DNA of 42,356 nt from a virus. Under the pieces are notes generated by a model. That model ran no database searches. It was not told the origin of the DNA and saw only the letters and a list, made by a program, of their open reading frames with translations. How positions within the stretch are numbered: the first letter of the stretch is position 1; each line of letters begins with the position of its first letter. The translations under genes were made by a program, and so were the position numbers. Of this stretch, positions 1 through 34,738 are shown piece by piece. The stretch spans positions 1 through 42,356 of the IMG/VR virus record IMGVR_UViG_3300005941_000013; one strand, given 5' to 3'.

Positions 1-1
1 A

Positions 2-1672
2 TATAGCTCTGGCGATATTAGATCTATTGGTATAGATGCTGATAACTATGCAAATTTAAAATCAGTGCAAAGTAGGTTTGACATTTATAATAGACAAGAA
101 AATGATCTATTGTTTGAACTGCCACGTGACAGAGTACAAGAAATAAGTTCTGTGACTGCTACTGTTGGTAAAGTGTACACTGTAAATAAAACTGCTAGTA
201 GCGTAACAATTAATACTGGTAACACCGATACATTTACTGAAACAGATGATTGGGTGTATCAGGTTAACTCAGGAGGCGATTTAAGTACTGACTTAAGTGT
301 AACGTTAAGCGATGGTGGAAACGGTCCAAATACACAGGCTGCTATTACCGGTCCTTCGAATGGTAACGGCCATGTTGTTGCATATCAGACTACAACTTTA
401 ACTCGTAAGAATAAATCGCTACAACCTGGCACAGCCGCAAATAGTTGGGCATCTGAAACTCTTAGTTTGGTTAACGACGAGTTTATACTTTCAAAAGCTG
501 ATATCTTCTCATTTAATAAAGTAACAGATGATACTACTAACGAAATTATAACATATAAATTTATTTTAAATAACGGACAAGATGATAACTATTACGGACC
601 AGGTAGAGGTAAGTTAAGAGGTGGCCAAGCTGCTCCGGCCGGAACGGTCACAGTAGAATATAAGTACTTTCAACACGATACTCCGATCGGCGCTGGGTAT
701 TTTGGAGGAGCGGCTTCTTATGGTGATATCACATTTAGTCAGATTCCCAAATATACTACGGCAAGAGGTGATACATACCACCTAGCCGACGTAATTGATA
801 TGAGATCCTTAAAAAATCCTGCTGATGAAACGTTTACTGGAGGCATTGCCCGTGTTGAGCCACTGCCTAAAAATCAATCAACAATTACCGTAGGCTTAAC
901 TAAGTACTGGCTACCTAGGAGAGATGCGCTTACTCTAACTTCTTCTGGAACTTTAAAGTATCACCAAGGTGCTTCATCTTATTCATTAGTTCCTCCTACA
1001 GGTGTAGATGGTAGGGACATGAAGTTGTATGATATTGTTATGTATCCATTCACATTTAATAATGAAGATTTAAGAGTAACACAGTATGATAATCGCGGAT
1101 ATAAGATGTCAGATATCCGAAGACTAGATGATAGAATTTCTAATGTTGAAAGAATAACAACTCTCTCATTAATAGAAGCTGAGTTATCATCTTTAGAAGT
1201 ATACGATCCTGATAATGCTACGTTTATTAGGCAAACTGAAGGCGTTACCGGAGATAATTTTGAAACTACTCTTCAATCAAATTGGTTTGATGATGATTAT
1301 AGAGCTGGCCATATGGCTGACACGCGTGAGCTGTTCCCGCTTTATTTCAACAAATCAATAGGTCTAACATATGATTCTGACTTATCTTTAGACACATGTG
1401 TAATAAAGGGCAATAATGTCTGGCCAAAATATACTGAAGTAGTTTCAGGTTTTGGCCAAGACGAAGCTACAGGTGTTATATCTGTTAATCAATTTGATAT
1501 ACCTCAAAGTATTGGTACAGCAGAGCTTACGCCAGAAGGCGATTATTGGACGAATAAACGTTTGGTGGACAAATCCTTTGTGCCTCAATCAAACGCATCA
1601 TTGCTACCAGATGGAACTGTAGAAATTAGTTCTCAAGGTACTATCACAGTAAGTACTGGTGCTTACAGTTAA
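2..1672 (+). CDS. Baseplate/virion structural protein, DUF4815-like, 5' truncated
   Basis: The reading frame is open from base 2, so the true start lies outside the window; an internal GTG at 65 is not a convincing start. 556 residues are visible. Around visible residues 370-420 there is a segment (DIRRLDDRISNVE, then TLSLIEAELSSLEVYDPD) that I recognise from DUF4815 structural proteins of marine T4-like phages. There it forms a helical stretch before the 'FxxxGLxPN' module. The rest is rich in beta-strand-like sequence. It ends at a TAA, and the next gene starts 15 nt later in the same frame. In relatives the three consecutive segments here seem to form one long polypeptide. Likely role is a baseplate or tail-fibre attachment component; the exact T4 counterpart is not clear to me. 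Confidence 0.75.
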   Translation, partial: YSSGDIRSIGIDADNYANLKSVQSRFDIYNRQENDLLFELPRDRVQEISSVTATVGKVYTVNKTASSVTINTGNTDTFTETDDWVYQVNSGGDLSTDLSVTLSDGGNGPNTQAAITGPSNGNGHVVAYQTTTLTRKNKSLQPGTAANSWASETLSLVNDEFILSKADIFSFNKVTDDTTNEIITYKFILNNGQDDNYYGPGRGKLRGGQAAPAGTVTVEYKYFQHDTPIGAGYFGGAASYGDITFSQIPKYTTARGDTYHLADVIDMRSLKNPADETFTGGIARVEPLPKNQSTITVGLTKYWLPRRDALTLTSSGTLKYHQGASSYSLVPPTGVDGRDMKLYDIVMYPFTFNNEDLRVTQYDNRGYKMSDIRRLDDRISNVERITTLSLIEAELSSLEVYDPDNATFIRQTEGVTGDNFETTLQSNWFDDDYRAGHMADTRELFPLYFNKSIGLTYDSDLSLDTCVIKGNNVWPKYTEVVSGFGQDEATGVISVNQFDIPQSIGTAELTPEGDYWTNKRLVDKSFVPQSNASLLPDGTVEISSQGTITVSTGAYS

Positions 1673-1687
1673 AAACAAGGTAAAGAG

Positions 1688-2485
1688 ATGCCATATAGAC
1701 AAGTAAAAAGAACGGGCAGTAGAAACGTTACACGAACACGTGATGTTATAAAACAGGACCGTTTAGGTTATAGTGAAGTAGATATACATAGACCAAAAAT
1801 TATATTTTTTGAGTTTAAAGGTTTGAGACCTAATATTCCTCATTGGATTTTCTTTGCTGATAAGCAGATAACAAAATACTGCAATACCTCATATAGCTTA
1901 ACAGACTATACGACTGCAGCAAGAACTTCAACTATTAAAGAGCCTGGAGATTCTTATATAACTGAAACAGCCTTTCCCGCTGGTTTAGGAGGAGCTACAA
2001 ATGGTGGTGCTGATGTCGCATTAACTTCTTCTGCAGATGGTTCATTAAGTGGGTTATTTTATTTGCAATCTAACACTACTACAAACTGGCCTATCAATAC
2101 TGATGGTACAAACTTTAGCGCACTAGATGTATCCGTTCTAGATAGAAACGAAGCTTTATCATACGCTGCTGCTCAATTCTATGCTCAAGGTCAAAACGAA
2201 TACTGGTACGAATATACTAATACTGAAAGCAAGCAGTTTTCTGAAAGTTACTCATATTTTGAAAGCGTTTTTTACGAAAATGACAATAATAATGATAACG
2301 ACGCACATGCGGGAGTTAATCAGTGTTTTGCTCCTAAAAACGAACCTATTTTTTCTCTACCGGGCTCATCAGCGCCGTTGAACATGGGATCTGTTCGACC
2401 AAAGGCTAGACCCGCCAGCATATATAATGCTACAAATGTTGCATCTGTTGCTTCAGGTAATGGTATAATTGGAGGTGGTTTCTAA
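1688..2485 (+). CDS. Virion structural protein, middle segment of split DUF4815-type protein
   Basis: 265 aa. The ATG at 1688 follows a purine-rich AAGGTAAAGAG. The segment IIFFEFKGLRPNIPHWIFF (residues about 36-54) matches the conserved 'RFTAxGLKPNTxxxxFFDG' element that follows the helical segment in DUF4815-type phage structural proteins. This suggests the gene continues the fold of the upstream protein. It is in the same frame as the upstream gene, separated by one TAA and five codons. The C-terminus is glycine-rich (GNGIIGGGF) and its codons contain the GGAGG Shine-Dalgarno of the next gene. Its stop TAA overlaps the next ATG by one base, so translation of the two is probably coupled. 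Function beyond a virion/baseplate component is inferred. Confidence 0.72.
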   Translation: MPYRQVKRTGSRNVTRTRDVIKQDRLGYSEVDIHRPKIIFFEFKGLRPNIPHWIFFADKQITKYCNTSYSLTDYTTAARTSTIKEPGDSYITETAFPAGLGGATNGGADVALTSSADGSLSGLFYLQSNTTTNWPINTDGTNFSALDVSVLDRNEALSYAAAQFYAQGQNEYWYEYTNTESKQFSESYSYFESVFYENDNNNDNDAHAGVNQCFAPKNEPIFSLPGSSAPLNMGSVRPKARPASIYNATNVASVASGNGIIGGGF

Positions 2486-4152
2486 TGACAGGTATTCTAC
2501 AATTAACAGAGCAAAAATCTCCTACAGCACAAACCTTTGTGGTTGATGAAGCAAGTGTGTTAACAGGTATAGGCATATTCTTTTACTCAGCTGATCCATT
2601 GCTTCCTATCACATTAGAGCTTAGGCCTACGACTGAGGGAGGCCAACCTTCTTCGAAGAGGTATATACCAGGCAGCAGAGTTGTAGCAACAGCTGCAGCA
2701 GTTGGAGCCAAAGCTGCAACAACATTTTCAGCTGCGACTGAATACAAATTCGAATTTTCATCTCCTATACAAGTGCCAGCCAATACACTTTTATCGGTGT
2801 GTATATACAGTAGCGCTGGTGCTGGTGCATACCAAACGTATTTTGCTCAGAACGGTGAATTTAATATTGGAACTACTACATCGAGATATAACTCTACCGT
2901 GAATACTTCGGGCGGCGCGTTATACTCATCTTCAAATGGCACAACATGGGAAGGTGATAATACAAAAGATTTAACATTTAAAGTATATAAAGCGCAGTTC
3001 GATACAGCGCTGTCTTCTGTTGCTAAGCTAGAAATAAATACTCCACCTCCTAAAAAATTAACAGAAAGCCTAGTACAAAATCAACTGGGCGATTACGTGT
3101 ATGATCCTTTAGTATTTACAGCTGGCGATGCTACTGTTTCTGTTCTTCATCCCGCTCATGGTTTTAGAGTAGGAGATACAGTAACTCTTAGCACTGACGC
3201 GACAGGATTTAGTAGTGGAGATACAGTAAATGGCGTCTTAGGTAGTAACATTTTAGGCGATAGAGTTATTACTGCAGCAGACCCGTATGGTTATACGTTT
3301 GAAATGGGTTCAGTAGCCACTGCTTCTGTTAGAGGTGGCGGTACTGGTTTATATGCTACTGAACAACACGAAATAGATGAATTTATGGTTAAGATTCCAG
3401 TATCAGCCCCATCTGGTACTAACGTTACTGCTAGTGCCGATTTTACATCTATAGGAGCTTGGCATGACACTAATACTGGATACCAAGCTATTGCTGGGGT
3501 TGGCTTAAATCTATCAGGGCCTCAAATACTTGATGAACCTGCTGTAATAGCATCAAGAGCACAAGAAGTTAATAAACTAGGTGGGAATCCTTCAACTGTG
3601 GTAAGCGTAAACTTATCTACTTCGAATGCAAATACGGCTCCTTATTTTAATGTTAATAGTTCTCAAGTCGAAACTGTGTCATATTTTATTGACCACCAGC
3701 AGTCTGATGTGGGTACAGCCACTGATAGAAACTTTATTAGTACTGTAGATTATGTACCTGAAACCTCTCCAGATGGCGGGACTTGTGGAAGTAAACATAT
3801 TTCAATAGTTTATAGTCTTACTAACTCCTCTACATCTATTGTAACTTTAGTAGATGCAGTAAGACCTATAGGAGCTGATTTTGATATATGGTTTAGGACC
3901 AATTTAAATTCAAGTGGAAACAAACTTTCTGAGCAAGATTGGACAGCTTTTTCTAAAGACATAAAAGTAACTAAGGGTAATAGTTATATAGACATTCCGC
4001 CTAGCAGCGACCTTTCTAGGTTTGTTGAATATGAGTTTAACGTATTCAATGTCTCTCCTTTTGACGAGTATCAAATAAAAATAACAATGAATGCTGAGAA
4101 ATCTACTAGATTCCCTCGTTTTAGAAACTTAAGAACAATAGCTACCTCATAA
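2485..4152 (+). CDS. Virion structural protein, C-terminal segment of split DUF4815-type protein
   Basis: 555 aa. The start ATG overlaps the upstream TAA (TAATG), with GGAGG at 2471-2475. The N-terminal 180 residues contain PTAQTFVVDE, LTGIGIFFYSADPLLPITLELRP and YNSTVNTSGGALYSSSNGTTWE, separated here only for naming. These match the 'DPLAQTF...IDLFFxxKxxxxPVxLxIRP...SxNGSTW' region that lies C-terminal to the 'GLKPNT' motif in long marine T4-like structural proteins. The remaining 370 residues are beta-rich with SGDTVNG/HGFRVGDTVTL-like loops, typical of baseplate or fibre-connector domains. The stop TAA again overlaps the next ATG. Most likely it is a baseplate-peripheral structural protein acting with the two upstream products. 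Confidence 0.72.
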   Translation: MTGILQLTEQKSPTAQTFVVDEASVLTGIGIFFYSADPLLPITLELRPTTEGGQPSSKRYIPGSRVVATAAAVGAKAATTFSAATEYKFEFSSPIQVPANTLLSVCIYSSAGAGAYQTYFAQNGEFNIGTTTSRYNSTVNTSGGALYSSSNGTTWEGDNTKDLTFKVYKAQFDTALSSVAKLEINTPPPKKLTESLVQNQLGDYVYDPLVFTAGDATVSVLHPAHGFRVGDTVTLSTDATGFSSGDTVNGVLGSNILGDRVITAADPYGYTFEMGSVATASVRGGGTGLYATEQHEIDEFMVKIPVSAPSGTNVTASADFTSIGAWHDTNTGYQAIAGVGLNLSGPQILDEPAVIASRAQEVNKLGGNPSTVVSVNLSTSNANTAPYFNVNSSQVETVSYFIDHQQSDVGTATDRNFISTVDYVPETSPDGGTCGSKHISIVYSLTNSSTSIVTLVDAVRPIGADFDIWFRTNLNSSGNKLSEQDWTAFSKDIKVTKGNSYIDIPPSSDLSRFVEYEFNVFNVSPFDEYQIKITMNAEKSTRFPRFRNLRTIATS

Positions 4153-4367
4153 TGGCAGACTATATACCAGTAAAAGATTATCCGGATTTAGTAAGAGATC
4201 CTAATACTAACATGATTTTGAATATAAATAAGAACAAACATAAGTATAATAATCTGATTAATGTGAGAAAGCAAAAAGAGCTAGATGAAATAGATCAACT
4301 TAAAAGTGATGTAAACGATATAAAAACAATGCTCCAAAAACTATTAGAGAACGGTTCAAATGGCTAA
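4152..4367 (+). CDS. Small coiled-coil protein, hypothetical
   Basis: 71 aa, coupled to both neighbours (TAATG at 4150-4154; 8-nt overlap with the next gene). The N-terminus reads [20 protein letters not shown] and a basic middle follows. Residues about 38-67 have heptad-like spacing of Leu/Ile/Val ([18 protein letters not shown]), predicting a short coiled coil. Small proteins of this design (IP...LVRDP...NxN, then a C-terminal coiled coil) recur next to fibre or baseplate genes in marine T4-like phages, but I know no assigned function. A trimerising or adaptor role for the adjacent long fibre is a guess. A perfect TATAAATA late-promoter box lies inside it at 4223-4230. Confidence 0.75.
4223..4230 (+). 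promoter_or_regulatory. Possible internal late promoter before the S74 fibre
   Basis: Perfect TATAAATA inside the 71-aa gene, 130 nt before the S74 fibre start. In an AT-rich genome this octamer can occur by chance in coding DNA, so it is a candidate only. Confidence 0.35.
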
Positions 4368-7300
4368 TTCAAAAATACCTAATATAACTTTAACTGATAC
4401 GTTAAATACGCAGCGAAGAAGAATTAACCAGCTGTTAGATTCAGTTGGTGATATGAGCCTAACAAGCATTGATCAAACTAGCGGTAGATCTACTTTCGCT
4501 GGAAGCAGACCTACTATTGGCGAGGCGTTACAAGAGCACGAGGCAAAGTTAGATTCTGCTGACACAATTAAAGTAAGAACACCAAAACTAGATGTGTATG
4601 ATAGCTCATCTACAAGTAGACTTGCAGGTAATTTAAAAGTAGATACTAATGTTGATATCGGTGGAAGTCTAACAGTCCACGGTATTGTTAACATGAAAGC
4701 TGGTTCTTCAGGAACTGTAACACTTGGAGATGACAATACAGATAACGTCGTATTCGATGCTGATATAAATTCAAGTATTATTCCTAATACAGATGACGCC
4801 TTTGATCTAGGTAGCACTGGACAAGAATGGCGTGATTTATATGTAGATGGAACTGGCTACATTGATGAAGTTTCAGCTGATAGTGCTACTATTGGTACTA
4901 TGAAAGTTACTGACTTAACTGATAACAGAATTGTATTTGCGGGTACTTCTGGAGAATTAGAAGATAATGCCAACCTTACATGGGATGATACTACTTTTAA
5001 TGTAACTGGATTGACTACTCTTGACAGTACTACGATAGACGGTGAACTATCCCTTGGAACATACGATATTAACGACGTAGCAAACGTGCACGTAAAAGAT
5101 GCTATTATCCATTCAGGTAATGATAATACAAAAGTTGTATTTGGTACGGATGCAGTAGATATACATACTGGCGGATCTTCAAGAATTGAAGTTGCAGATA
5201 CTACCGTGACAGTTACAAACGACTTACAAGTAGATGGCTCTCTTACTGTAGACGGTACCGTTAATTTTAAAGCCGGTACAAATGGCTCAGTTACTCTTGG
5301 TGATGCTAATACCGACAATGTAGTATTCACTGCCGATGTTAATTCTAGTATTATTCCCAACGCAGATAACTCTTTTGATTTAGGTAGCAATAGTCAGCAG
5401 TGGCGCGATGGTTATTTTACTGGTACAGTTAACGCTGATAATTTAGCTGCTGATTCCGCAACTATATCAGGTGATTTAGATGTTCAGGGAATTACCACTC
5501 TTGATAGCGCGACTGTAAGTAACGCTTTAAATGTTCAGGGAACTACTACTCTTGATGATGCCTTAACGGTTAATGACTCAGCGTATATCACAGGTAATTT
5601 GGACATTGGTGGTAATGTAACTTCAACAGGAACTGCATTCACTATTTCTGCTGAAACAGGTACTGATGATAATGTTTCGTTAGGAGATACGATAACTTTT
5701 GAAGCAGGTGAAGGTATTACCACAACTGTATCTAATAATAATATTAAGATTGATGGCGAAGTGGCAACATCATCTAACAAAGGTGTAGCTTCATTCAGTA
5801 CACAAAACTTCTCTGTGACTGACGGTGCAGTAACAATCAAAGACGATGGTGTTATTCTTGGAACAGAAACTACTGGCAACTATGTGTCAGGTATCTCAGG
5901 CACAGCTAATGAGATTACTGTTTCTCATACGCCGGGAGAAGGATCTTCCGCTACTATCAGTTTACCAGATAAGATATCAGGTATAGAAAGTATTTCTGCA
6001 GATAGCGCTACGTTCGACATTTTGAGTGTTTCTACTGGTTTTACTGTGAATGGAACATTTACTACCACTGGAGTAAGTAGGAATGCAAGCAGCTATACGA
6101 TAGTAAACGACGGTGTTTCAGTAAATGATATTAATAGAGCAGGATTAGCTGTTGATCGTCCAAGCACTGATAGCGCAGTACTACAATGGAATGAATTAGG
6201 AGATTATTGGGAAGCAGGAACACTTACTGGCCTTAATAGATTAGCACTTCAAAATGATAGCGCGGCATTTGACAATATCTTTACTCGCGACCTTACTGCA
6301 AACGCAGCAACAACTGGTATCTTAACAGTAGACAGTATTCAAAATACTAGCGGGGATATTACTCTTACTTCAGCTGCTGATATTAACCTTACTTCAGCTG
6401 CTGATGGCAACTTTAACTTTAAGCAAGATGGTTTTGCTAATCCTTCGTTGAAAATTGATACAGCTGGTTATTACAGTGATACTAATGCTCCAATCATGAC
6501 AACTGATGGTACAAATTCTTTTTATGTAAAGAGTAATTCCCTTGGCATAATTCATAATGATAGTACTAATGTTGGGCTGTCATTGCAACCATATCTAAGT
6601 GGGAATAAATCTCGTATTTGGTCTAGTAGAGATCTACACATTGGAACAGATCAAATTGATGTCACCACTAAAGGTTATGACGTAACTCTTGATACAGTTA
6701 ACAGCATTAACCTTGATGCTGGCAACGGTAACGTTTTCTTAGAAAATAACGGTACTCGTTTTGGTAGATTTGTTAAAAGCGGTAATGGGGTTAAAATACA
6801 CGGTGATACCAATAACGGTTATATCCATATTAATGACTCAGACATTACATTTAACGGCAATGTAGTATTCCAAGGTGAAGTAACAGAAATTAATGCTACA
6901 CAACTTAATATTGGTGATAACACTATTGTCCTCAACAATGACTTTGGTGGTACTAATCCATCAGAAGATGCTGGCATTGAAATTGAGCGCGGAACTCAAA
7001 GTAATACTGTGTTAAAGTGGGACGAGACTGATGATCGTTGGCAGTTTACAAATGACGGCACAACCTATTACAATATTCCAGTATCTTCAGAATATAATAA
7101 CAATGTCTATTCTTTACCAAAGGCAACTAATGGTACTAGAGGTGGTATACAGGTAGGTTACACTGAATCTGGTAAGAACTATCCTGTTGAACTATCTGGT
7201 GATAAGGCATATGTTAATGTTCCATGGACTGATAATAATGACAATACTACTTACGGTCTAGCTTCTCCTAGCGCTGGGACAGATATAAGACTTTTAGGTT

Positions 7301-11379: not shown

Positions 11380-14300
11380 ATGGCAGTAACTACTATAATT
11401 AAAAAGGTTGTTGTCGGAACTCCTTTAAGAAATGTTACTTCAGGGTCATTCAGTATCCAGAACCTTTCAGGATTTTCTTTAACATCTTTAGCTGATAACC
11501 AGCTTTTAAGGTACGATTCTGCAGCGGCCGCCTTTGTAAATACCTCTGTTCTTAATAATCTTAATATAGATAATTTCCAGTTTGATAGCGATACGCTAAC
11601 AATGTCTGGTAATAATCTAACTATTACTTCAGCTGCAACTACTATAAGTGGTGCTGTAGATATAGCAGGCAATTTAGAAGCTAATACTGTTAGTGTAGAT
11701 GACGTTTCAGTATTTAATAATAATGACCTTACTCCTAAGATATATGTTGATACGGAAATAGGAAAAGTTTCGAATTTACAATTTAAAACAGATGAAGGAT
11801 TTATAGATTCTGTTGAGCTATACGGCAATGAAATTGTAAATGCTATTGGCGGAAATGGAATAACTACTTCTGGCGCAAAAGTAGGATTAGACTATAACTT
11901 AAACATAGCTCTAGATAGTGCTGGAGCAGCAGCAGGAACATATGGCGGCGCAACCAATATTCCGGTATTTAAGTTAAATGATTTAGGTTTAGTGGAATCA
12001 GCCGGAGAGGTTGCAGTCGCAGGCGTTTCAAGTATAGACTTTGATTCATCTAATGGTACGTTTACTATTAGTACCGCAGATGGCGGAACCTTTGCCGAAG
12101 TAATTACTTTAGATCCTTATAATACTGGTAATTTAGCAGAAGGTTCTAATCTTTATTATACTAGAGCAAGATTTGATAGTGCATTAGGAGATACTACTAG
12201 CATATCTGCTATTAGAAACTATTTTTCTACATCTGGCGATATTGTCTATAATTCTAGTACTGGTGAATTTTCTGTTGACGTTTCTCAAGTCTACGACGCT
12301 AGTAACTTTGACTCAGATCTAGATAACGCTTTACAATCTTCAGTTACTTTAACTTATGACTCAGCTCATGACACTTTCGAAATTATCAGAAGAGCTGAAG
12401 TTATAATTGATGTAGCAAGTGCAAATGGCGGAGCTTATCAATTTACAGGAGATGGTTTCCCTGTACAATCTGGCGATAATCCATCTATATATCTTCAACG
12501 TGGTAAAACATATATTATCAATAATCCGTCACACGGCTCGCATCCTATCGAAATAAGATTGGAAGACGGAGGTACGCAATATACTTCAGGCGTAGTAGGT
12601 GACGGTACTAATCAAATCACATTCACGGTACCATTTGATGCACCCGATACTTTAGTTTATCAGTGCGGAATACATGCCGCTATGGTTGGTACATTCTATA
12701 TTGATGAAATAAAATCCAACACTACTAGCGATCTATCAGAAGGTAGCAACCTCTATTATACAACTACGAGAGCCGATTCTGACTTTGATAATAGACTAAC
12801 GACAAAATCAACTGCAGATCTTACAGAAGGTTCTAATCTTTATTACACTAAGGTAAGAACAGATTCCGACATTAACCAAGGATTTGCAGATAGAACTACA
12901 ACTGATGTTGCTGAAGGTACAAACCTTTATTATACTCAGTCGAGAGTAGATAGTGCATTTGATGTAAGATTAGCAACTAAATCCACTACTAATCTTTCAG
13001 AAGGCGATAATCTTTATTATACTAGAGCAAGATTTGATAGTGCATTAGGAGATGCCACATCTGCTTCTGCAGTTAGAAGTCATCTTAGCGCAAGCGGTGA
13101 TTTATCATATAACTCAACTACTGGCGATTTTAGCATTGACGTTGAGAGCATATACTCTGCTGCTAATTTTGATTCAGACCTTGACGCTGCTATATCTGGT
13201 GGAACCGCTCTTACGTATGATGCTGCAACAAATACAGTAAATTTAGACGACACAAGCGTGACTCCAGGATCATACGGATCGGCTAGCTTGGTTCCTACAT
13301 TTACTGTCGACCAACAAGGTAGGTTAACTGCGGCTGGAACTGTGAATGTTGCAGGTGTTGATTCTACATCTTGGAGCGGGGTTAATAGTACACTAACAAT
13401 TAATACAGCTGATGGTGGAGAGTTTAATACTCTAATCGATAGCTTTGGTACTGCAGTAAAATTTAATGCAGGAATAGATGTTACCGGTCCAGTTACTGTT
13501 ACAGGCCATTTACTTCCAGGAGCAGATAGTGCTTATAATCTAGGTGATTCAGCACAAAAATGGAAAGATTTATACCTAAGCGGTAATTCCATTTATTTGG
13601 GCACACTAGTCATGGCAGATAGCGATGGCAGCATGGTTATGAGAAATCATAATTCAGGTAAAATAAAATTACAAGCTGGTCAAGGTGTTTTCGATTCTGC
13701 GACAATAGGACAAATTACAAGTGATTCTGCATCTATAACACAAATAAATGCATCTAACCTTACCGTAGATAGCATTGACGCAGGCCGGGCAAACTTAGGG
13801 TATATTGAATTAGATCCCACTAGTTATCCTGACGGAAGTGCTCCAACAACAGTTGAAGGTGGATTATGGTACAACCCTGGACCTGATGCTCTAGTATATA
13901 AATCTTCTACTGCAAGTGTAATAAAACTGGGACAAGAAGAAGTAACAAGAGTCTTTAATAACTCTGGTAGCCAGATTGATAAAGGTAAAGCAGTTTATGT
14001 AACTGGTGCATCAAATGACTTCCCAACTGTAGCACTAGCAAGAGCAAATAGTTTAAATACAGTATACAAAACTTTAGGTTTAACTAAAGATATTATTTCT
14101 CCTGGCCAATATGGTTTAGTAATTAATAGGGGTTTAGTCGGAGGATTAGACACTCAAAACTTTGTAGCCGGCGATGTAGTACACGTATCAGTAGATTCTG
14201 CAGGTGAGTTAATTTCTAACAACCCAGTTTATCCAAACTATGCAGTTGAAATAGGTACGGTTCTGGTTGCTGATTCAGCCGAAGCAAATAATGTTGGTGG

Positions 14301-17140: not shown

Positions 17141-18352
17141 ATGGCAGCAAATATAAAACTAAAAAGATCCGCGGTCTCTGGAAAGATTCCTGGAACTGGA
17201 GATCTGGACTACGGCGAAGTTGCTTTAAACTACGCCGATGGTAGATTGTACTATAAAACCTCATCTAATACTGTTTCAAGTATTTCAGGTGGAGGTGCGG
17301 AAACAGATTCTGCAGCTCCTACTAGCTCGTTGCAAGATGGTTCTTTATGGTGGGATGCAGTAAACGGTAAGTTAAAAATTTACTATGGAGAACCAACTCC
17401 AGCAGCCGCAGCAATTAATTTAGCAGCTACACAAACAAATGCACAATCAGGAGATTATTTGTTTACTGGTAGCGATAGAAGTTCTACGTTCTCGAGCGAC
17501 CCTGATCCTACTATTTACATATATAAAGGTGATACACTAAATGTAGTTAATAGTGCTACAGCAATTCACCCGTTCTTCTTAGTTTCTCAGTTAAGTCTTA
17601 GTAACTCATATGATGCCCTCTATAATATTCCAGGTGTAACTAATAATGGTGGCTATAACGGTACTACAATCAGCTATCAGTTCAATTCCGTAGGAACATA
17701 TTACTATATCTGCTCAGCCCATCCATCAATGCAAGGCCAAATTATAGTAGTTGATGCAGCTGACGTTAGTGCTCAGTGGGTAGACGCAAGTGCATCTCAA
17801 CGAGGATTTACAGGATCTGCTGGGGCTATATTTCAAGGTGAAAATGTTCCGGCTAATCCTACAGCCGGTCAAATTTGGTACAATTCAAACACTGGGAAAT
17901 CATATATCTACTATACTAATCCCTCGACAAGTCAGTCGCAATGGGTGCTGCAAGCAGATCCTACAGTATCTGATGGAGATAGAGGCTATTCTGGCTCAGT
18001 TGGCTATACTGGTTCTCAGGGTGTATACGGTCCTCGTGTTATTTCTTTCCAAGCACCAGATTCAGGCGATCAGCAAACATTAATGTATACTGATAGGCAG
18101 ATGATAGTTTCTGAAGTAAGATCAATAGTTAGCTACCCTGGATCAAGTGTGAGCATGTCTCTTAAGTATGATTCTGATAGAAGCTCTTCAGGAACTCTGA
18201 TAACTTCTGGCACGATTAATAGTACAACTAGTGGAAACGTTGGCAGTATTTCTAATGCTACTATAGATGCTGGTCGGTGGATCTGGGCAGAAGTTACTAA
18301 CCCATTAGGCTTAGTGGACGAAGTAAGCATTAACGTAAGTTTTAATGGATAG
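17141..18352 (+). CDS. Fibre/adhesin with Mtd-type N-terminus, cupredoxin-like domain and short collagen stretch
   Basis: 403 aa. Residues 1-50 (IKLKRSAVSGKIPGTGDLDY, GEVALNYADGRLYYK) match the small N-terminal module seen in Mtd-like and many other phage fibre proteins. About residues 100-207 form a cupredoxin-like domain: YIYKGDTLNVVN, His143 (IHPFFLV), then YYYICSAHPSMQG with Cys191, His194 and Met197. All four type-1 copper ligands are present, with amicyanin-like C-x2-H-x2-M spacing. GYSGSVGYTGSQGVYGP (about 285-302) is a short collagen-like stretch. The last 100 residues form a beta-rich head domain. It has its own late promoter and is followed closely by the C1q-like gene. The function is predicted as adhesin; metal binding is untested. 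Confidence 0.85.
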   Translation: MAANIKLKRSAVSGKIPGTGDLDYGEVALNYADGRLYYKTSSNTVSSISGGGAETDSAAPTSSLQDGSLWWDAVNGKLKIYYGEPTPAAAAINLAATQTNAQSGDYLFTGSDRSSTFSSDPDPTIYIYKGDTLNVVNSATAIHPFFLVSQLSLSNSYDALYNIPGVTNNGGYNGTTISYQFNSVGTYYYICSAHPSMQGQIIVVDAADVSAQWVDASASQRGFTGSAGAIFQGENVPANPTAGQIWYNSNTGKSYIYYTNPSTSQSQWVLQADPTVSDGDRGYSGSVGYTGSQGVYGPRVISFQAPDSGDQQTLMYTDRQMIVSEVRSIVSYPGSSVSMSLKYDSDRSSSGTLITSGTINSTTSGNVGSISNATIDAGRWIWAEVTNPLGLVDEVSINVSFNG

Positions 18353-19705: not shown

Positions 19706-22700
19706 ATGGCTATTGCTAATCTAACACAAGAAGTTTCCTTAGTAGATTCAGATTTTCTGGGTTTACCTGTTCAGCACCATATCGCTGATAATGGCTATTG
19801 GTATGTGTATCATCCTGCCGATATAGTTAATAATACTACGCAAACTGGTAATGCTATTGAACTATATAAATGGGATTCGGCTTTACATATAGATGCTTCT
19901 TATTATTTAAATAGTAGTGAGCCTACTTATGCTGAAACCGATGGAACTTTTGCTTGGATTAGCGAGACTTGGGACGGAACCGCAAAAAAATATCATGGTG
20001 GAGCTGGCCAGCACATTGGTACTGGTTCCAATGATATTACAGGTGTTTCTGAAAACGATGCATTTATGTTTTCGCACATTGGTCAATATGGTAACAACGG
20101 CGTTGGAGGTGGCGGGGATCTCGAAGATGACGCATTCTATTGGGATAGAATGTATCAAAGAAATCAAGGCGACGAGTGGGAATACTACCAATATCACAAG
20201 CACTTACCTTCTAACTATTCTAAATTTGATGATGGTAGATTAACCTGGGGATCAGATGGGTTTATTAGGCCTTCTGATAAACAGTACGGATATATGATTA
20301 ATATCCTAGTTAAGTCTGGCGGCTTGGCCTACTCGGTACCTCTAGCAAGAATCCATACTCCATCAGTTGGTGGTGCACATAACTCACACAATGACGTTAC
20401 GCTTCCTAATCAGGCCGGAATTAATTATCTTCCAGCTGGAATTTTAAAAGGTAGTTCAAATAGATTCCATGCATTTTATTTAGAAGATGCAAATAACGCT
20501 GATAGTGAATGGACTGTTTATTCTAGAACATTTACATCTTCTTCAGGTTCTTTCACTGCTCAAGTTAATTATGGTGATTTTAAAATACAAAAACCTACCT
20601 TTAATCCTTATCCTGGAGGTAACGAAGAAGCTGAAGGCGTACAAAGAGATTACACTTTTTCTATAAGTAGCGGACATACGTTTGGATCTTATATCTACTG
20701 GCCTGTTGTTATGCAGGCACAACCGAAAAGTTTTACAGTTCAACTAAACAATCAGGCAAATAAGTATAAAGTATTAGGTACAGATAGACAAGAACCAGGA
20801 ACTCTTGATGGGGTAGCAATTCAACCTGATATTCTTATGAAGGTTGGCGACACTATGGTTTTCACTAACCTAGTTTTAAACGTGCATCCTATGAATGTAT
20901 TCACAGACAATGGCGGAAGCCCTAGTGGAATTAATGCTCCAGGATCTTCAGGTAACGGTACTAATACTGTAACATTTACACCGCAAAGTGCAGGAACTTA
21001 TTACTATTTCTGTACGGTGCATAATGGTATGTACGGCGAGATTGTTGTCTCCGAACTTTCTACTGCGTCCGATCTTCAGATATGGAGAGTAACAGACGCT
21101 AATACTATTTCTCCTGGTACTTTAGAACGTATTAATATGCCTTATCCTTTTGAAGGAACAGACGTATATCCTAGTGCTTTAATTACATCTGTGGGTTCAA
21201 ACGGTTATATCACAGCTGCAGGTGGTCAATCCGGCGGCGCTCAGATGTACAGCTTTGATACTCAGATTGATTCCAGCGGAGACATCAGTTTTGAAGGTAA
21301 CATCGTAACGAATCCGCCAAGCAACCCTCTAAGAGTGCATGGTTTTAAATACAATGCAGAAAATACTAAATACTTTACACTATTAAGCGGAGACGATGGA
21401 GTTGGAACCTACAGCGGCGATGGCTTATACAGTTGGGATTTGGCCGGTGGTAGTTTTGCCGGTTATGAACATCTAGACTATGAAACGACAACAGGTGGGT
21501 TTATTAATCGTAATAGCAATACATCTGGTCATTTATCATACAATAATGCAACCGGTATAGTTACTAGAAAAAACCAGTTAGAACCAGAAGGTATTCCAAA
21601 TGGTACTAGCATTCTTCAATGGGATATAGCTTCTCCACAATTCTATAACAGAAAAGAAATTAATACCGGATCGACCGAATATTACTTCCAAGGTATTTAC
21701 TTATCAGATGGAAGAAAAGCTCTTGTAGGCAGAGTAGAAAATGCTCCTGGTAATTTAGGAAATGAATTATCTGGAGATATGGTTCTTACTATCGTAGATA
21801 ATGAAAACAACTCTGTAAGTTATAGTTATGGACTAGAAGGTGACGACTTTGTTACAGGTATTATAGAAGATGTTGAAAATAATAAGCTAGTATTATCAGG
21901 TTATGCAAAAGGTGAGCTAGCCGACAAATCTAAACAGTGGGTGCATGGCTGGGCTAGAAGATTTAGCAACACTGTTGATTCTTCAGGTTGTAGTTTTGAA
22001 TCTATCATAAGAGATAATAATGGTGATTATACTGTAGCTGGAACTGACACTTTAGACGGTAAACTGTTTTTAGCAAACTACGATAAGAATTTTACGTTAA
22101 GCTCATCTAAAAAAATAGATATTGGTTTTAGAAATGATGTCAGCGTGGATATATTGCACGATGAAGCCACAGGTGACAAATACGTCGTAGGATACACATA
22201 TAATGAAAGCTTTCCTTATAGCTCAACTATAATTGTAAAAATTGATTCAAGCGATACTATTATTTGGTCAAAAAAATTATCTCAGTCTAACTTATATATT
22301 AAACCAACCTCTGCTACGTTAGTTAAAAATTCAGGCACATTATATATTGCGACATTCCTACACAACTCAGCTGCTGATACTGGAGATTTTAAGGGCGGTG
22401 CGTTAGTTGTAATTGACACTGATGGTAATACTACATCTACTAGAGATTTGAGTGAAATCGGTATTGATATTAGCATGTATGTTAATAATGTAGTAGCTGG
22501 TGGAGATGATACCGGAAAATTCTTCTTTAGCGGTTCAGTTTCTAATGGCAGTGCTGGAAGTGTTCACAGAAGTCCTGCATGGGGAATGGCTTCTATAAGT
22601 GATGCTAATCTTGTAAAATATATTAACTATTCGAACAATACACTATCAGATGCTCAAAGTTGGGATGAGTATGAGGCAGCATGGCTTGATATAGCTTTAA

Positions 22701-24916
22701 TAAAATACGATTCTGATTTGTCAACACACGAGCTAATTTTAGGTGGTAAGAAAGAAGACACATCTCTAGCTTCAGGCGCAGAAGATTATAGCGGTACTAT
22801 GGGTGCTATGATGCTAGAAAGAGGACATAGTTCTTTTGCAATAATGCAAAAAGTAAAAATAGCTGATAGCGCAAGCTATGTTGTTGACGTTGAATGGTCA
22901 AAACAAATTAATTCTCCATTGGGTTATTTTGAAGAAGTTAATAGCTTGCTAGTAGAAGATTCTGACAGCAGGCCGTGGTGGTTCTTTGAAGATGAAGAGT
23001 TTCATAATGGAAATCATAGAGTAATCTTTACTGGTACTGGTTTAAATATGGACAGTGACGGCGGGACTCTTATGAGGGCTGATACTCTCCTTGGCGGCAT
23101 TAACACTAATGATGGATCAATATATTTTAATAATACTTTGGGCCACATGGGTGAAGATAATATAGGGAAAGATATTGTCTGGGATCATCTTACTCGTAAT
23201 TTTGTTACAGTAGGAGGTTCAACATCTCACTCACAGGGTAAAGACGGAGTATTGTTTAGAGGTGATAAAGAAGGTTGGGGAACAGGTGTTTATCACACTA
23301 CAGCTTCTACTTCCAATGCATATTATTATGATTCAGCTACTATTAATACTATTAACGAAACTGCTATAGAAACTACTAAGGTAGAAGTTTCAAATCCAAC
23401 ATACAATGATACATTATACACTTCTAGTGATATAGGAACGTCACTGATAGATGGATCATACTACGGTTTAGAATATAACGGGTCTTACGGCGCAAACGGT
23501 CTATTCACTGGATTTATGGCTATTGTAGATAAAGATGATTTACAAGAATTCCTGAATACTGAAACATATAGAAAAGAAAAAGCCGCAGGTAATATTATTC
23601 ATAGAGCAGATAATCTGTTTCAAATACACCAGATTTCTACTGTAGGCGATGCGACTGCAGATGATGGTAACGTATTTGCTTACGATGTCATAAAATCTTC
23701 AGACGGAGAATACTACTATATTGGTGGTCAGGTTTCTGGTAATATAGCTAAAACAAACACAGGCTTATCAGGAGTTTATGACTACTACTTAGCTCAGTGG
23801 GATATCGCAAGCAGTGAGTTTAGATTATGGCAAAACGGTGATGACGGTGATGAAGAAATCTATGCCCTTACAGAGCTAGAAGGAACATCTAAAGCAGTCA
23901 CAGACCCAGAAGCAGTAAACAACGGCGGGTTTGCAGGTACAGTAAGTTGGACACCAACCGTAGCAGGTACTTACTACTATCAATGTGGTAATCATAGTTC
24001 TATGAATGGACAAATTGTAGTCCAAGACGTACAAGGATCTACATCATCAATTGACATTACTGCTATGTACGATAATGTACCTCTTGCATTTAGATTCTCT
24101 GGAACAGATAGAGTAGGTAACATTAATCCTGCAGTAAATAACCCAACTATAACTATAGATACGGGTGACACAATTAATTTCACTGTGTATAATAGAGCAC
24201 ATCCATTCTGGATTCAGACTTCAACAGGATCAGGCGGAGCCAAAAAAGGTCACATTGCCTTTACTGGTAGAACAACAGGTAATTTAGCAGGCGGAACACA
24301 ATTTGGCGGCTATGATATATTTTTAGGAATATTTAATCCTAGGGCTTGGAATGCTGAATACTATAACATAGGTTCTGGTTTCAATGACAAAGGTATGAAT
24401 CTACATGATATAAATGAAATTCTACCTAATTCATTAGCCATTTCATATACTACTTTTGGCTCAGTAAACAATGCACAAACATTTGGATCTGAAGATATTG
24501 GTATTATTACTTTCAACTATGATAGTGATATTTGGTCTAACGGCTTTCAAACAGGTTCAGAAACGTCTGAAGAAATAGAACAAAACGGAAAAGCTAGTTC
24601 TAAGCTACTAGATGGTAGAATCGGAGTTGTTTGTAATACTGCTGGTGCATTTGCTGATGATGCGAATACGTTTGGATTAAAAGATATGGGTCTAGGTATA
24701 TTTGATTTTGATTCTGATGGATTAGGTAATTACCAAGGTTGGTCTAAGTACCAAGTTGGTTCTGGTTCTTCTGACTTTTCATACAGTATAGATAATAACG
24801 GTTCTAGTTTCTTAGTAACAGGATACTCAGAAGCAACTTGGGATAAAGACGTTTCTGGCGTTTTTGTAGAATTCGATCCTGAAAGAAACTTTAAAGGCAA
24901 AGTCGCGGGGACTTAA
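19706..24916 (+). CDS. Giant beta-propeller-like fibre protein with two cupredoxin-like domains, one circularly permuted
   Basis: 1736 aa. Much of residues 450-1736 consists of blade-like repeats of the SBBP/delta-60 style, for example LSDGRKALVGRVENA, DNNGDYTVAGTDTLDGKLFL, DGEYYYIGGQVSGN and NGSSFLVTGYSEA. This suggests one or more beta-propellers. A cupredoxin-like domain at about residues 340-450 has His394, Cys436, His439 and Met442 (YYYFCTVHNGMYG). A second at about 1393-1512 has its halves swapped: Cys1427, His1430 and Met1433 come before His1499. It also interrupts a propeller blade (EIYALTELE before, GHIAFTGRTTGN after). The N-terminal 330 residues are rich in Trp, Tyr and His with no family recognised. 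Probably a virion surface protein that binds cell-envelope ligands. Confidence 0.85.
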   Translation: MAIANLTQEVSLVDSDFLGLPVQHHIADNGYWYVYHPADIVNNTTQTGNAIELYKWDSALHIDASYYLNSSEPTYAETDGTFAWISETWDGTAKKYHGGAGQHIGTGSNDITGVSENDAFMFSHIGQYGNNGVGGGGDLEDDAFYWDRMYQRNQGDEWEYYQYHKHLPSNYSKFDDGRLTWGSDGFIRPSDKQYGYMINILVKSGGLAYSVPLARIHTPSVGGAHNSHNDVTLPNQAGINYLPAGILKGSSNRFHAFYLEDANNADSEWTVYSRTFTSSSGSFTAQVNYGDFKIQKPTFNPYPGGNEEAEGVQRDYTFSISSGHTFGSYIYWPVVMQAQPKSFTVQLNNQANKYKVLGTDRQEPGTLDGVAIQPDILMKVGDTMVFTNLVLNVHPMNVFTDNGGSPSGINAPGSSGNGTNTVTFTPQSAGTYYYFCTVHNGMYGEIVVSELSTASDLQIWRVTDANTISPGTLERINMPYPFEGTDVYPSALITSVGSNGYITAAGGQSGGAQMYSFDTQIDSSGDISFEGNIVTNPPSNPLRVHGFKYNAENTKYFTLLSGDDGVGTYSGDGLYSWDLAGGSFAGYEHLDYETTTGGFINRNSNTSGHLSYNNATGIVTRKNQLEPEGIPNGTSILQWDIASPQFYNRKEINTGSTEYYFQGIYLSDGRKALVGRVENAPGNLGNELSGDMVLTIVDNENNSVSYSYGLEGDDFVTGIIEDVENNKLVLSGYAKGELADKSKQWVHGWARRFSNTVDSSGCSFESIIRDNNGDYTVAGTDTLDGKLFLANYDKNFTLSSSKKIDIGFRNDVSVDILHDEATGDKYVVGYTYNESFPYSSTIIVKIDSSDTIIWSKKLSQSNLYIKPTSATLVKNSGTLYIATFLHNSAADTGDFKGGALVVIDTDGNTTSTRDLSEIGIDISMYVNNVVAGGDDTGKFFFSGSVSNGSAGSVHRSPAWGMASISDANLVKYINYSNNTLSDAQSWDEYEAAWLDIALIKYDSDLSTHELILGGKKEDTSLASGAEDYSGTMGAMMLERGHSSFAIMQKVKIADSASYVVDVEWSKQINSPLGYFEEVNSLLVEDSDSRPWWFFEDEEFHNGNHRVIFTGTGLNMDSDGGTLMRADTLLGGINTNDGSIYFNNTLGHMGEDNIGKDIVWDHLTRNFVTVGGSTSHSQGKDGVLFRGDKEGWGTGVYHTTASTSNAYYYDSATINTINETAIETTKVEVSNPTYNDTLYTSSDIGTSLIDGSYYGLEYNGSYGANGLFTGFMAIVDKDDLQEFLNTETYRKEKAAGNIIHRADNLFQIHQISTVGDATADDGNVFAYDVIKSSDGEYYYIGGQVSGNIAKTNTGLSGVYDYYLAQWDIASSEFRLWQNGDDGDEEIYALTELEGTSKAVTDPEAVNNGGFAGTVSWTPTVAGTYYYQCGNHSSMNGQIVVQDVQGSTSSIDITAMYDNVPLAFRFSGTDRVGNINPAVNNPTITIDTGDTINFTVYNRAHPFWIQTSTGSGGAKKGHIAFTGRTTGNLAGGTQFGGYDIFLGIFNPRAWNAEYYNIGSGFNDKGMNLHDINEILPNSLAISYTTFGSVNNAQTFGSEDIGIITFNYDSDIWSNGFQTGSETSEEIEQNGKASSKLLDGRIGVVCNTAGAFADDANTFGLKDMGLGIFDFDSDGLGNYQGWSKYQVGSGSSDFSYSIDNNGSSFLVTGYSEATWDKDVSGVFVEFDPERNFKGKVAGT

Positions 24917-31741: not shown

Positions 31742-34738
31742 ATGAAAATTGCGATTATTGATTTATTAGGTTTAACTTATGATGGATATACTCTCGGATC
31801 TAGAGGATTAGGTGGTTCTGAATCTGCTGTAATTCTTATGTCTGCAGAGTTACAAAGACTAGGTTTTGATGTTACAGTTTTTAACAACTGTGAAGATTCT
31901 CAAGCTAGCCCTGGCACTTATAGTGGTGTAAAATATGTAGACCACGATTCAGCAGATGCTACTGAGTTTTACGACGTAGTAATATCTTCTAGATCAGTTT
32001 TTCCATTTTTTGCTGGTCATAAGTACGCAGAAATGTGTAGCCGGGCGAGCTATAAAGTAATATGGATGCATGATACCTTTTGTGAGGGTGATGAGCACAT
32101 TGAAACGATGCTTAATCAAGGAATAGTAGACCAGCTATTTACCTTATCAGATTTTCACACTAACTATGTTTTAAACTGTGAACATGGCGCTAAAAGAAAT
32201 TTTGAAGTATTAAAAAATAAAATATTCCAAACAAGAAACGGTGCTGTCAAAAGAATCGAAGATAACGATAGTTTAGCACATAAAGAAAAAAATCATTTCG
32301 TTTATAATGCTTCTGTAACAAAAGGATTAAAGCCTTTACTAAATCACATCTGGCCCAAAGTAAAAGAAAAAATACCTGAAGCCAAGCTAACAGTGATAGG
32401 TGGTTACTATAGATTTAGAGAGGGTGCTGAGCCTGATGCTCAAGAAAAAGATCTAGAAGCATTTAAAGAAAGTATAGATCCAGCATTAGATGTTACATTT
32501 ACTGGCGTTATTAATCAAAATCTAATAGCTAATATACTACAAAAAGCTGGATTTATGTTATATCCCACTGACTTTCCTGAAACATTCGGTATATCAACTT
32601 TAGAAAGTTTGTTATATAATACGCCTGTTATTACGTGTAACTTTGGTGCTTTAGAATCTACGGCTTTAGACTTAGCATGTTATAAAATAGATTATGCTTC
32701 GGTACCAAATAGCTTATTTCCTAATATTAATGAAGAAGCGCAGTCAGATCTTTTTGTAGATTTAGTAATTAATGCTTACAGCGACGACTACTTGTTATCT
32801 CAAAAAAGATCCTATTGCGGTGTACTTGATGATATTCATAGTTGGAGCAGCGTAGCTATACAATGGAAACAGCAAATATATTTTAAATTAGAAAAATATC
32901 TAAATGTAAATGAATATAAAAAAGCGCAGTATATTAACGATAAAGTGAACAGAGTTTTTAATAAAACATTTTTAAATGAAATTGAAAGGCAAGTATTAAG
33001 AAAAACAAGTGTTGAAAAAAGAATAGTTATAATTTCTCCTTTTAGAAACGCTGAAAGATATTTACAAACTCACTGCGAATCTATTGATCAACAAGATTAT
33101 GATAACTATCTGCATATTATGATAAATGATGCTTCTGATGATGGAAGCGCCGATGTTCTTAAAAAGTTTGAGAATGACCAAAGGATTATAATAGATAACG
33201 TAGTTAGAAAGGGATGCATCGCTAATCAGCTTCATGTTATTAGTAAACACTGTAAGCGTGGTGATATTGTAATGCTATTGGATGGTGATGATTTTCTAGT
33301 AAGTAATAATAGTATTTTTAATTACTATAACGAGGTATATCATCAAGGGTTTAGATTTACTTATGGGTCATGCTGGAGTCTTGCTGACGGTATTCCGCTA
33401 ATAGCGCAGGACTATCCTGTAGAAGTTAAGAAGGAAAGAACATATAGAGACCATCTATTTAATTGGAAAATTCCTTATACCCACTTAAGAACATGCGCAG
33501 CAGAATATTTTTGGGATATTCCTACTAGCCGATTTAAAGATGATGATGGAAATTACATTACCAGCGGAGCTGATAATCCGTTATTTTATGAGCTAATTGA
33601 AAAAGTCGAGTGGCAAAGAATAAAGGCAGTTAAAGAGATATTCTGCTACTACAATGATCTAAACCCGCTGAATGATTATAAAGTGAATTCCGAAGAACAA
33701 AATATAAACGCTAATCGGTCTTATGAAAAGATTCCTCTTATAGAGAATAATACAACAATGAATGAAACTAAAAAAATACTGATAGCAATTCCTACTAATG
33801 CTGGAATTGAGCCCGACACATTTAGATCAATCTATAATATGTCTGTCCCCGAAGGATATGAAACGCACTTTGAGTTTTTCTATGGCTATCAAATAGATCA
33901 AATTAGGAATCTAATTGCGGACTGGGCTAAAAAGTTTGATTACCTATTTAGCATTGATAGCGATATTATTGTGCCTAAAGATGCCCTTACTAAAATGCTA
34001 TCCTACAATAAAGATGCGGTAAGTGGTGTTTATATTCAAAGATTCCATGATAAGCAAACTAGTGAATTATATTACTTGAAAGATGGACGTCATTTAAACT
34101 ACCAAACAAATGAACTACCCCAGAATAGTGTAATTGAGGTTGATGCATTTGGTTTAGGGTGCGCTCTTATAAAGAGTGAGGTATTTAAAAATATAGATTA
34201 TCCGCATTTTGTGTATTCTTCTGCATTAGATCACTCACAAACTTTATCTGAAGATGTATATTTTTGCATGAAGGCAAAAGAGAATAGGTTTAAATTATAC
34301 GCAGATACAAGTATTATATGTGACCATATTGGCAAGCACAATTTTAAGGTAGGGTCTATGATGGCTTCTGAAGAAAAAGAAGCACTAGAAGTTAAAAAAC
34401 TTACATATGATATTGAAGGAGATAACTTATATAGTACATCTAATGATCAAAAGACTTTGCTACTAGAAAATTGCAATGACGCGTCTCTAGACATACTTAT
34501 TCCTCAGCATCTCATCGAATTCCCTAAATGTATTAGAATTGACTCACGAAAAAAGGAGTTAGAAATACTAAATGGATCAACACTGGTGTTAGAAAAATGC
34601 GAAGAAGTTGTAGTTAGAATTTTAAATGACCAACCTGATACGGATAACATACTTCAACATCTAGTTGATATGGAATTTAAGCTTATTTCTAAAGTAGAAA
34701 ATGAATTTGACAAAGACTATTACTTTAGTAGATTATAA
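31742..34738 (+). CDS. Three-domain glycosyltransferase (GT4 + GT2 + GT-A)
   Basis: 998 aa, cytoplasmic by sequence (no signal or membrane segment). Domain 1 (about 1-380) is a GT-B/GT4 enzyme, with LGGSESAVILMSAELQRLGF at the start and the E-x7-E motif E280...E288 (FPETFGISTLESLLYNTPVI). Domain 2 (about 430-650) is a GT2-type GT-A fold, with IISPFRNAERYL, NDASDDGS and the metal-binding DGDD at 514-517. Domain 3 (about 675-880) is another GT-A-like domain, with LIAIPTNAGIEPDTF and DSD at 739-741, then VDAFGLGCALIKSEVF and a DHIGKHN ending. The last 100 residues are unassigned. Three nucleotide-sugar transferases in one chain suggest that a short glycan is built stepwise. The gene has its own late promoter and sits between virion genes, so virion protein glycosylation is more likely than early DNA modification; this is inference. 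Confidence 0.88.
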   Translation: MKIAIIDLLGLTYDGYTLGSRGLGGSESAVILMSAELQRLGFDVTVFNNCEDSQASPGTYSGVKYVDHDSADATEFYDVVISSRSVFPFFAGHKYAEMCSRASYKVIWMHDTFCEGDEHIETMLNQGIVDQLFTLSDFHTNYVLNCEHGAKRNFEVLKNKIFQTRNGAVKRIEDNDSLAHKEKNHFVYNASVTKGLKPLLNHIWPKVKEKIPEAKLTVIGGYYRFREGAEPDAQEKDLEAFKESIDPALDVTFTGVINQNLIANILQKAGFMLYPTDFPETFGISTLESLLYNTPVITCNFGALESTALDLACYKIDYASVPNSLFPNINEEAQSDLFVDLVINAYSDDYLLSQKRSYCGVLDDIHSWSSVAIQWKQQIYFKLEKYLNVNEYKKAQYINDKVNRVFNKTFLNEIERQVLRKTSVEKRIVIISPFRNAERYLQTHCESIDQQDYDNYLHIMINDASDDGSADVLKKFENDQRIIIDNVVRKGCIANQLHVISKHCKRGDIVMLLDGDDFLVSNNSIFNYYNEVYHQGFRFTYGSCWSLADGIPLIAQDYPVEVKKERTYRDHLFNWKIPYTHLRTCAAEYFWDIPTSRFKDDDGNYITSGADNPLFYELIEKVEWQRIKAVKEIFCYYNDLNPLNDYKVNSEEQNINANRSYEKIPLIENNTTMNETKKILIAIPTNAGIEPDTFRSIYNMSVPEGYETHFEFFYGYQIDQIRNLIADWAKKFDYLFSIDSDIIVPKDALTKMLSYNKDAVSGVYIQRFHDKQTSELYYLKDGRHLNYQTNELPQNSVIEVDAFGLGCALIKSEVFKNIDYPHFVYSSALDHSQTLSEDVYFCMKAKENRFKLYADTSIICDHIGKHNFKVGSMMASEEKEALEVKKLTYDIEGDNLYSTSNDQKTLLLENCNDASLDILIPQHLIEFPKCIRIDSRKKELEILNGSTLVLEKCEEVVVRILNDQPDTDNILQHLVDMEFKLISKVENEFDKDYYFSRL

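Follow-up and report, generated by a model that had tools for sequence, protein, structure and literature searches.

Cupredoxins of the plastocyanin/amicyanin type (PF00127) match both halves of the domain analysed here, and the Cys-x2-His-x2-Met of the domain aligns with amicyanin, whereas its halves are swapped in order, the whole is lodged inside another domain, and it carries 'HP' as against the 'PH' of amicyanin. The azurin of entry 5syd, known to us by its title, is likewise a circularly permuted cupredoxin, but an engineered one. Marine phages are known to encode normal-order cupredoxins, with the His half first and the Cys half second, as in the tail spike protein of P-SSM2 and the tandems of related phage proteins (e.g. 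L010–L018), and small ORFs of marine Bacteroidetes (L136, L138–L140) match the same family profile at 111–120 bits but, unlike the present domain, are of normal order, free-standing and cellular. Protein SXBG_00005 of Synechococcus phage S-CAM1 (BFVD A0A1D8KFC6) and its IMG/VR relatives place the C-terminal part first, carry the domain as an insertion and keep the presumed ligands, as does the present protein, and differ from it in where the chain is cut and in the host protein. The published records of the S-CAM1 protein that were examined do not describe it as permuted; no natural circularly permuted cupredoxin was found described in the open-access literature searched (subscription papers lay mostly outside its scope), and passages of PMC4532836, PMC12051499 and PMC3143127 contain no description of one. 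The original prediction knew of no such domain in a virion protein, which holds for this literature, although the S-CAM1 case already lay unrecognised in deposited sequence. Here we present residues 1393–1514 of a phage protein as, very probably, one permuted and closed cupredoxin, for which a tandem origin, a copper site and an accessory role are proposed. Sequence, relatives and structure prediction together lend good support to its being a natural circularly permuted cupredoxin.

Host protein and layout of the insert

The window, by which we mean the whole stretch of DNA analysed, is a 42,356-base virus record whose terminase is nearest, among phage records, to that of Phage C48C1 (71.9% identity, residues 11–511), a phage placed by taxonomy in Kyanoviridae. 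The gene at 19706..24916 (+ strand) encodes a protein of 1736 residues made of propeller-like repeats with two cupredoxin insertions, and among the neighbouring genes are one whose product matches a collagen-like tail fibre and one for a protein with Peptidase_S74. A match of the 1736-residue protein to a tail-family PHROG is uninformative on the location of the protein because the best-matching stretch, residues 323–450, is its normal-order cupredoxin. The protein is probably a structural protein of a marine phage and may be a phage fibre.

The permuted cupredoxin as a whole occupies residues 1393–1514 (23882–24247), and all of its parts are encoded on the + strand. It is preceded by a strand, EIYALTEL (residues 1384–1391, 23855..23878), that is predicted in both AlphaFold2 models described below. 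The C-terminal half of the cupredoxin comes first (residues 1393–1442, 23882..24031, profile positions 67–118) and contains the presumed ligand loop Cys1427-x2-His1430-x2-Met1433 (23984..24004). The N-terminal half comes second (residues 1447–1514, 24044..24247, profile positions 9–72) and contains the presumed ligand His1499 (24200–24202). The strand that follows, GHIAFTGRTTGN (residues 1515–1526, 24248..24283), is supported by the AlphaFold2 models and by relatives in which the site is empty. The reading frame, the four ligand positions and the correspondence of residues 1393–1512 to 23882–24241 were all given correctly in the original prediction; of the limits proposed there the start stands, whereas the end lies a few bases further on, at about 24247.

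Order of the cupredoxin halves and their presumed ligands

The order of the halves was read with a cupredoxin family profile of 119 positions, whose 52 source domains are all of normal order, come from other loci and include several near-identical tandems. The window domain gives two matches to this profile, model positions 68–118 followed by 9–70, which together cover the model nearly once, and a profile search beside the insert revealed no remaining N-terminal half upstream and no C-terminal half downstream. Three scans of IMG/VR located the permuted domain in 21 contigs carrying 11 distinct sequences, namely that of the window and 10 others that are 52–82% identical to it over the domain; in one contig the matched stretch is identical to that of the window, and contig L077, which starts past the insertion site, was left out of the count. 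The swapped order is kept in all 11 distinct sequences, with model positions 68–72 to 117–118 first and 4–9 to 66–71 second, and no orthologue with one half alone was present among the 21 contigs. On joining the halves in normal order, each of the 11 gives one full-length match of 101–133 bits. In a rotation scan the window domain peaks at the junction of its halves (116.8 bits versus 61.7 bits in natural order), whereas each of six normal-order control domains, rotated three residues at a time, scores highest when left unrotated (rotation 0). Comparison of profile with profile points the same way, the natural order aligning over 64 columns (E 1.1e-21) and the re-ordered one, built from 6 of the 11 distinct sequences, over 108 columns (E 1.2e-44). 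The Pfam PF00127 Copper-bind model scores the window domain at 18.6 bits in natural order (profile positions 60–99), under the cut-off of 21.2, and at 26.6 bits after re-ordering (positions 15–99), over it. The swap of halves claimed in the original prediction is thereby confirmed, and the re-ordered search proposed there as a check returned one full-length match, the Pfam cut-off being passed after re-ordering alone. At the level of sequence, coverage of the family profile once, by two segments in swapped order, is shown and is read as circular permutation.

In a survey of 255 sources (1510 distinct ORFs), which were retrieved by cupredoxin or flanking queries and hence form a non-random sample, the swapped adjacent arrangement occurs only in the window family and the S-CAM1 family, and 10 normal-order tandem pairs were correctly kept apart from it. 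Deduplicated on the C-terminal 300 residues, the survey holds 11 window-kind proteins, 24 S-CAM1-kind pairs in 16 proteins, and 159 full normal-order domains. With later loci added and deduplication by exact sequence, it holds 18 window-kind pairs in 18 ORFs, among which the window protein, a contig copy and a fragment are counted separately, and 34 S-CAM1-kind pairs in 24 ORFs; as the sequences were retrieved with related queries, these numbers are not natural frequencies. A tblastn search with the window domain matched 22 phage records; the order check of these, which left out P-SSM5, P-HM2 and duplicates, found S-CAM1 permuted and P-SSM2, AG-345-E02, AG-345-P14, S-H9-1, P-HM1, MED4-213 and AG-345-F15 all of normal order. 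The S-CAM1 insert matches 35 records, and the corresponding check, which left out the ACG-2014 phages, found S-CAM4 and Sf-CH5 among those of normal order. A bacterial scan (one genome per species) yielded five confirmed loci whose five cupredoxins are all of normal order, and when viral contigs were scanned using normal-order domains as queries, the 80 best among 491 confirmed matches contributed no permuted case. The wider survey also gave 99 other partial matches. In L181 and L218 a C-terminal part lies ahead of an N-terminal part, ∼145 residues apart.

The presumed ligands His, Cys, His and Met are invariant in all 11 distinct sequences, and from these residues a copper-binding, type-1 site is predicted with somewhat better than even confidence. 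Searches of solved-structure sequences bear on the assignment of the ligands. The natural-order profile (11 rows) finds auracyanin A as its best match (E 0.00043), in two stretches of swapped order, and the re-ordered profile (6 rows) gives a best E of 0.0065, worse than natural order; for phage relatives of normal order, the match to plastocyanin has E 7.2e-6. Re-ordering extends the amicyanin alignment to 84 positions, versus 27 in natural order, and in it the Cys-x2-His-x2-Met of the window family is aligned with amicyanin, whereas the phage His of 'HP' sits two positions ahead of the His of amicyanin's 'PH'. As the 'HP' His misses that of amicyanin, the N-terminal ligand His1499 was assigned by conservation, and our estimate of the likelihood of copper binding was lowered slightly because of this misplacement. 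A lesser but real possibility is that the permuted cupredoxin-like fold no longer binds metal and persists purely as a scaffold. Such a reading would accommodate the poor fit of His1499 to amicyanin, as well as the finding that 24 of the 159 full normal-order domains fail a simple four-ligand pattern, from which ligand loss may be tolerated. Against it stand the invariance of the four residues in domains that are otherwise 52–82% identical to that of the window, and the presence of HPF in 24/24 pairs of the S-CAM1 family, although the latter pairs were found by a pattern that itself requires C..H..M and H and so favours this result.

Predicted structure and the insertion site

Two AlphaFold2 models were computed. 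The small one spans residues 1384–1528 and rests on 11 full rows plus 34 hand-chosen half-domain fragments of 17 normal-order cupredoxins, which, having been entered as separate rows, do not directly tell the predictor how the halves are to be paired. It depicts a single compact all-beta domain (pLDDT 86.4, pTM 0.80), so that both cupredoxin segments are confidently predicted to fall in one domain, in agreement with the single-domain expectation of the structural check put forward in the original prediction. VIA-align returned nine entries with Z ≥ 2 for this model, the first of which is the circularly permuted azurin 5syd (Z 3.5, rmsd 3.2, 81 aligned); given the low Z, this match is only supportive. 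Natural cupredoxins are absent among the nine entries, which says nothing for a different fold, and Foldseek gave no match in the PDB at E ≤ 0.001. Sequential aligners are expected to miss permuted chains. At the same threshold (E ≤ 0.001) BFVD yields a single match, SXBG_00005 or 'proximal tail fibre' of S-CAM1 (E 6.3e-6, rmsd 2.7, 93 columns), a protein that is itself permuted by sequence.

Fibre proteins are often trimers, and the C-terminal half of one chain might pair with the N-terminal half of its neighbour, an exchange that single-chain prediction could not see. We consider such a swap between subunits very unlikely, given that the single-chain prediction is confident. The join between the halves is short (a raw gap of 1–6 residues between the two matches in the window family), which by itself is compatible with either pairing.

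The large model (residues 720–1736, 11 sequences) has a mean pLDDT of 63.5, with 10-residue means of 67–89 across the insert, 24–50 just before it and 25–71 after it. Among the 50 PDB matches listed for it, which have low TM-scores and no matched ranges given, many are, as we take them to be, propeller proteins. The host domain of the insert is thus likely a propeller, with the adjoining blades predicted at low confidence. The insert, of ∼121 residues, lies in a turn joining two neighbouring strands, and its flanks align to the empty site of two distant homologues, L134 and L135 (44% and 37% identity over the upstream stretch), in which the equivalent of EIYALTEL runs directly into that of 24248–24283. 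The empty site reads DEEIYALTEMANGKIAFVGRTAGE in L134 and is a longer turn in L135, whereas the filled site of the window reads DEEIYALTELE...KKGHIAFTGRTTGN; both homologues carry a normal-order cupredoxin at another place. A comparison of these sequences suggests that the ∼121 residues were gained at the turn, with loss from it less likely. The placement of a permuted cupredoxin between two neighbouring strands is supported by these empty sites. As to the proposal that the flanks form one propeller blade, they do join in the empty-site relatives, whereas the blade itself is predicted with low confidence in a likely propeller.

The same outer ends bear on a further alternative, that of two decayed tandem cupredoxins, the first without its N-terminal half and the second without its C-terminal half, whose remnants do not make one domain. 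A plausible ancestor for such a pair is at hand, as related phage proteins carry normal-order tandems with equal spacing at the C-to-N junction. After correction for the model ends, 8/10 tandem pairs have a spacing of −4 and the remaining two have −19 and −17; in the window family the 18 permuted ORFs range from −5 to −3, and 33/34 pairs of the S-CAM1 type have −3. Against decay, the two segments span the profile a single time, losing or duplicating little of it, in all 11 distinct sequences; the presumed ligands are invariant, one compact domain is confidently predicted, and the outer ends run into stretches directly joined in the empty-site relatives. We hold this reading to be highly improbable. 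An error of assembly or sequencing by which portions of a repeat-rich gene changed places, conceivable in a record with several mutually similar cupredoxin stretches that could confuse assembly, has a negligible probability and is ruled out by the orthologous contigs, 20 further ones having the same order in domains 52–82% identical and one having an identical matched stretch. A permuted single domain is the reading we hold with little doubt.

The same protein contains a normal-order cupredoxin (residues 339–450, 20720..21055, + strand), whose presence had been pointed out in the original prediction. It has no counterpart at the same position in L134 and L135 and is likewise an insertion, from which it follows that permutation is not required for insertion. 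The idea that the new ends of the permuted domain fit a blade loop is borne out as a fit, but the fit alone fails as an explanation, and a need for permutation in order to fit between two strands is weakened by the insertion at residues 339–450. Cupredoxins nested in normal order inside another cupredoxin occur in 20 other proteins, and a five-glycine run lies on either side in the three sequences inspected.

Probable separate permutations, proposed origin and role

In the open frame of SXBG_00005 from S-CAM1, profile positions 95–117 match residues 197–219 and positions 6–93 match residues 224–308, i.e. a full cupredoxin in swapped order that is cut ahead of the Cys strand (profile ∼94 versus ∼70 in the window); re-ordering raises its score from 72.9 to 98.7 bits. 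Its host part matches Peptidase_S8, and subtilase-like proteins of this kind are found in S-CAM1 and its relatives. Scans for the S-CAM1 kind yielded 33 loci and then 37, mostly from the same contigs, with one of the 37 (L017) being of another kind. A second site, unoccupied in part of the relatives, holds another permuted copy in the rest: by pattern this second site was readable in 29/34 sources, a count that leaves out L091, L092 and L112, and it is empty in 19 and filled in 10, while in L093 and L103 it is also filled, though the pattern missed both. As the cut points differ between the two families, the simplest reading is that permutation happened at least twice separately.

The agreement in C-to-N spacing between normal-order tandem pairs and the permuted ORFs is the basis on which we propose a tandem origin. 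The ancestor would have been a tandem cupredoxin pair, of which the middle, C-terminal half plus N-terminal half, was alone kept or captured between two repeat strands; in terms of a single domain, the chain would have been opened in the loop following the His strand and the old ends joined via a short linker. Among the sequences compared, normal-order phage domains are the closest to each half. A search for the tandem parent identified none, the best relatives of the two halves differing in most sequences with scores that are close.

From cupredoxin topology we assume that the copper site is at one pole of the domain and that the original termini, like the two new cut points, are at the other; in that case the copper pole would face outward in all forms. 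The domain may be an accessory one, rigid and stabilised by metal, at the surface of a tail fibre or adhesin, where its most likely role would be to aid contact with the host surface or to protect the fibre, rather than to act as an electron carrier in a pathway. An accessory display role, suggested by ligand conservation and gene context, has in our estimation an even chance of being correct. The chances are similarly balanced for a broader proposal, in which marine T4-like phages have permuted cupredoxins at least two times and use them as pluggable copper domains for propeller and subtilase loops, copied within a gene, perhaps so that the virion surface makes use of copper.

A pair of natural permutants that are cut at different points and keep their presumed ligands would allow a direct test of which ways of connecting the chain are compatible with a type-1 copper site. 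Comparison of empty and filled sites in relatives, including those of the second copy in the S-CAM1 family, makes it possible to put permutation and insertion in sequence. If the reading as pluggable domains is true, these proteins would be a natural counterpart to engineered insertions of permuted domains, and copper binding by the domains in virions, if it occurs, would point to a metal-dependent feature of marine phages.

Cupredoxins in normal order and local composition of the window

Two further cupredoxins of normal order are encoded in genes neighbouring that of the 1736-aa protein, at 17417–17755 (in a 403-aa protein) and 12412–12702 (in a 1895-aa protein), which brings the record to at least four cupredoxins across three proteins. 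The distant homologues of the 1736-aa protein in which the insert site is empty also carry a normal-order cupredoxin elsewhere in the same gene, at residues 807–912 in L134 (1536–6107) and residues 819–941 in L135 (1437–6047). At the nucleotide level, GC skew is approximately zero across the permuted insert (23850–24299), and ranges from 0.07 to 0.3 in the other intervals of 22500–24899. Elsewhere in the window, 31742–34738 encodes a 998-aa protein whose single chain has matches to glycosyltransferases of two types, group 1 and family 2.

Other permuted and possibly interrupted cupredoxins

The subtilase-like proteins of Synechococcus phage S-CAM1 and its relatives contain a second type of permuted cupredoxin, found among the fetched loci in L055 (3980–4321), L104 (4632–7241), L095, L105, L093, L103 and L088. 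Some of these proteins possess a second permuted copy at a site that is empty in others, and the two copies share 66–78% DNA identity (locally aligned bases, four proteins). Split matches were observed in two further loci, where a C-part match is followed ∼145 residues on by an N-part or middle match: residues 350–389 then 535–589 in L181 (frame 1–4938), and residues 772–831 then 974–1027 in L218 (frame 1427–7279). These are possibly additional rearranged or interrupted cupredoxins.

Nested and free-standing cupredoxins

A cupredoxin nested within another cupredoxin is present in L041 (7791–8495) and in 19 other proteins, with the inner domain placed ahead of the HP strand of the outer domain and, in the three of the 20 proteins inspected, bordered by glycine runs on both sides. 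In L155 the outer domain (4343–4531) reads YYYVSENAQAM at the Cys and His positions of its relatives, and its ligands have likely been lost. Free-standing cupredoxins are found in marine Bacteroidetes (L136, L138, L139 and L140), encoded by short open frames of 134–155 codons that have a signal-peptide-like start, and these cellular domains are close to those of the phages.
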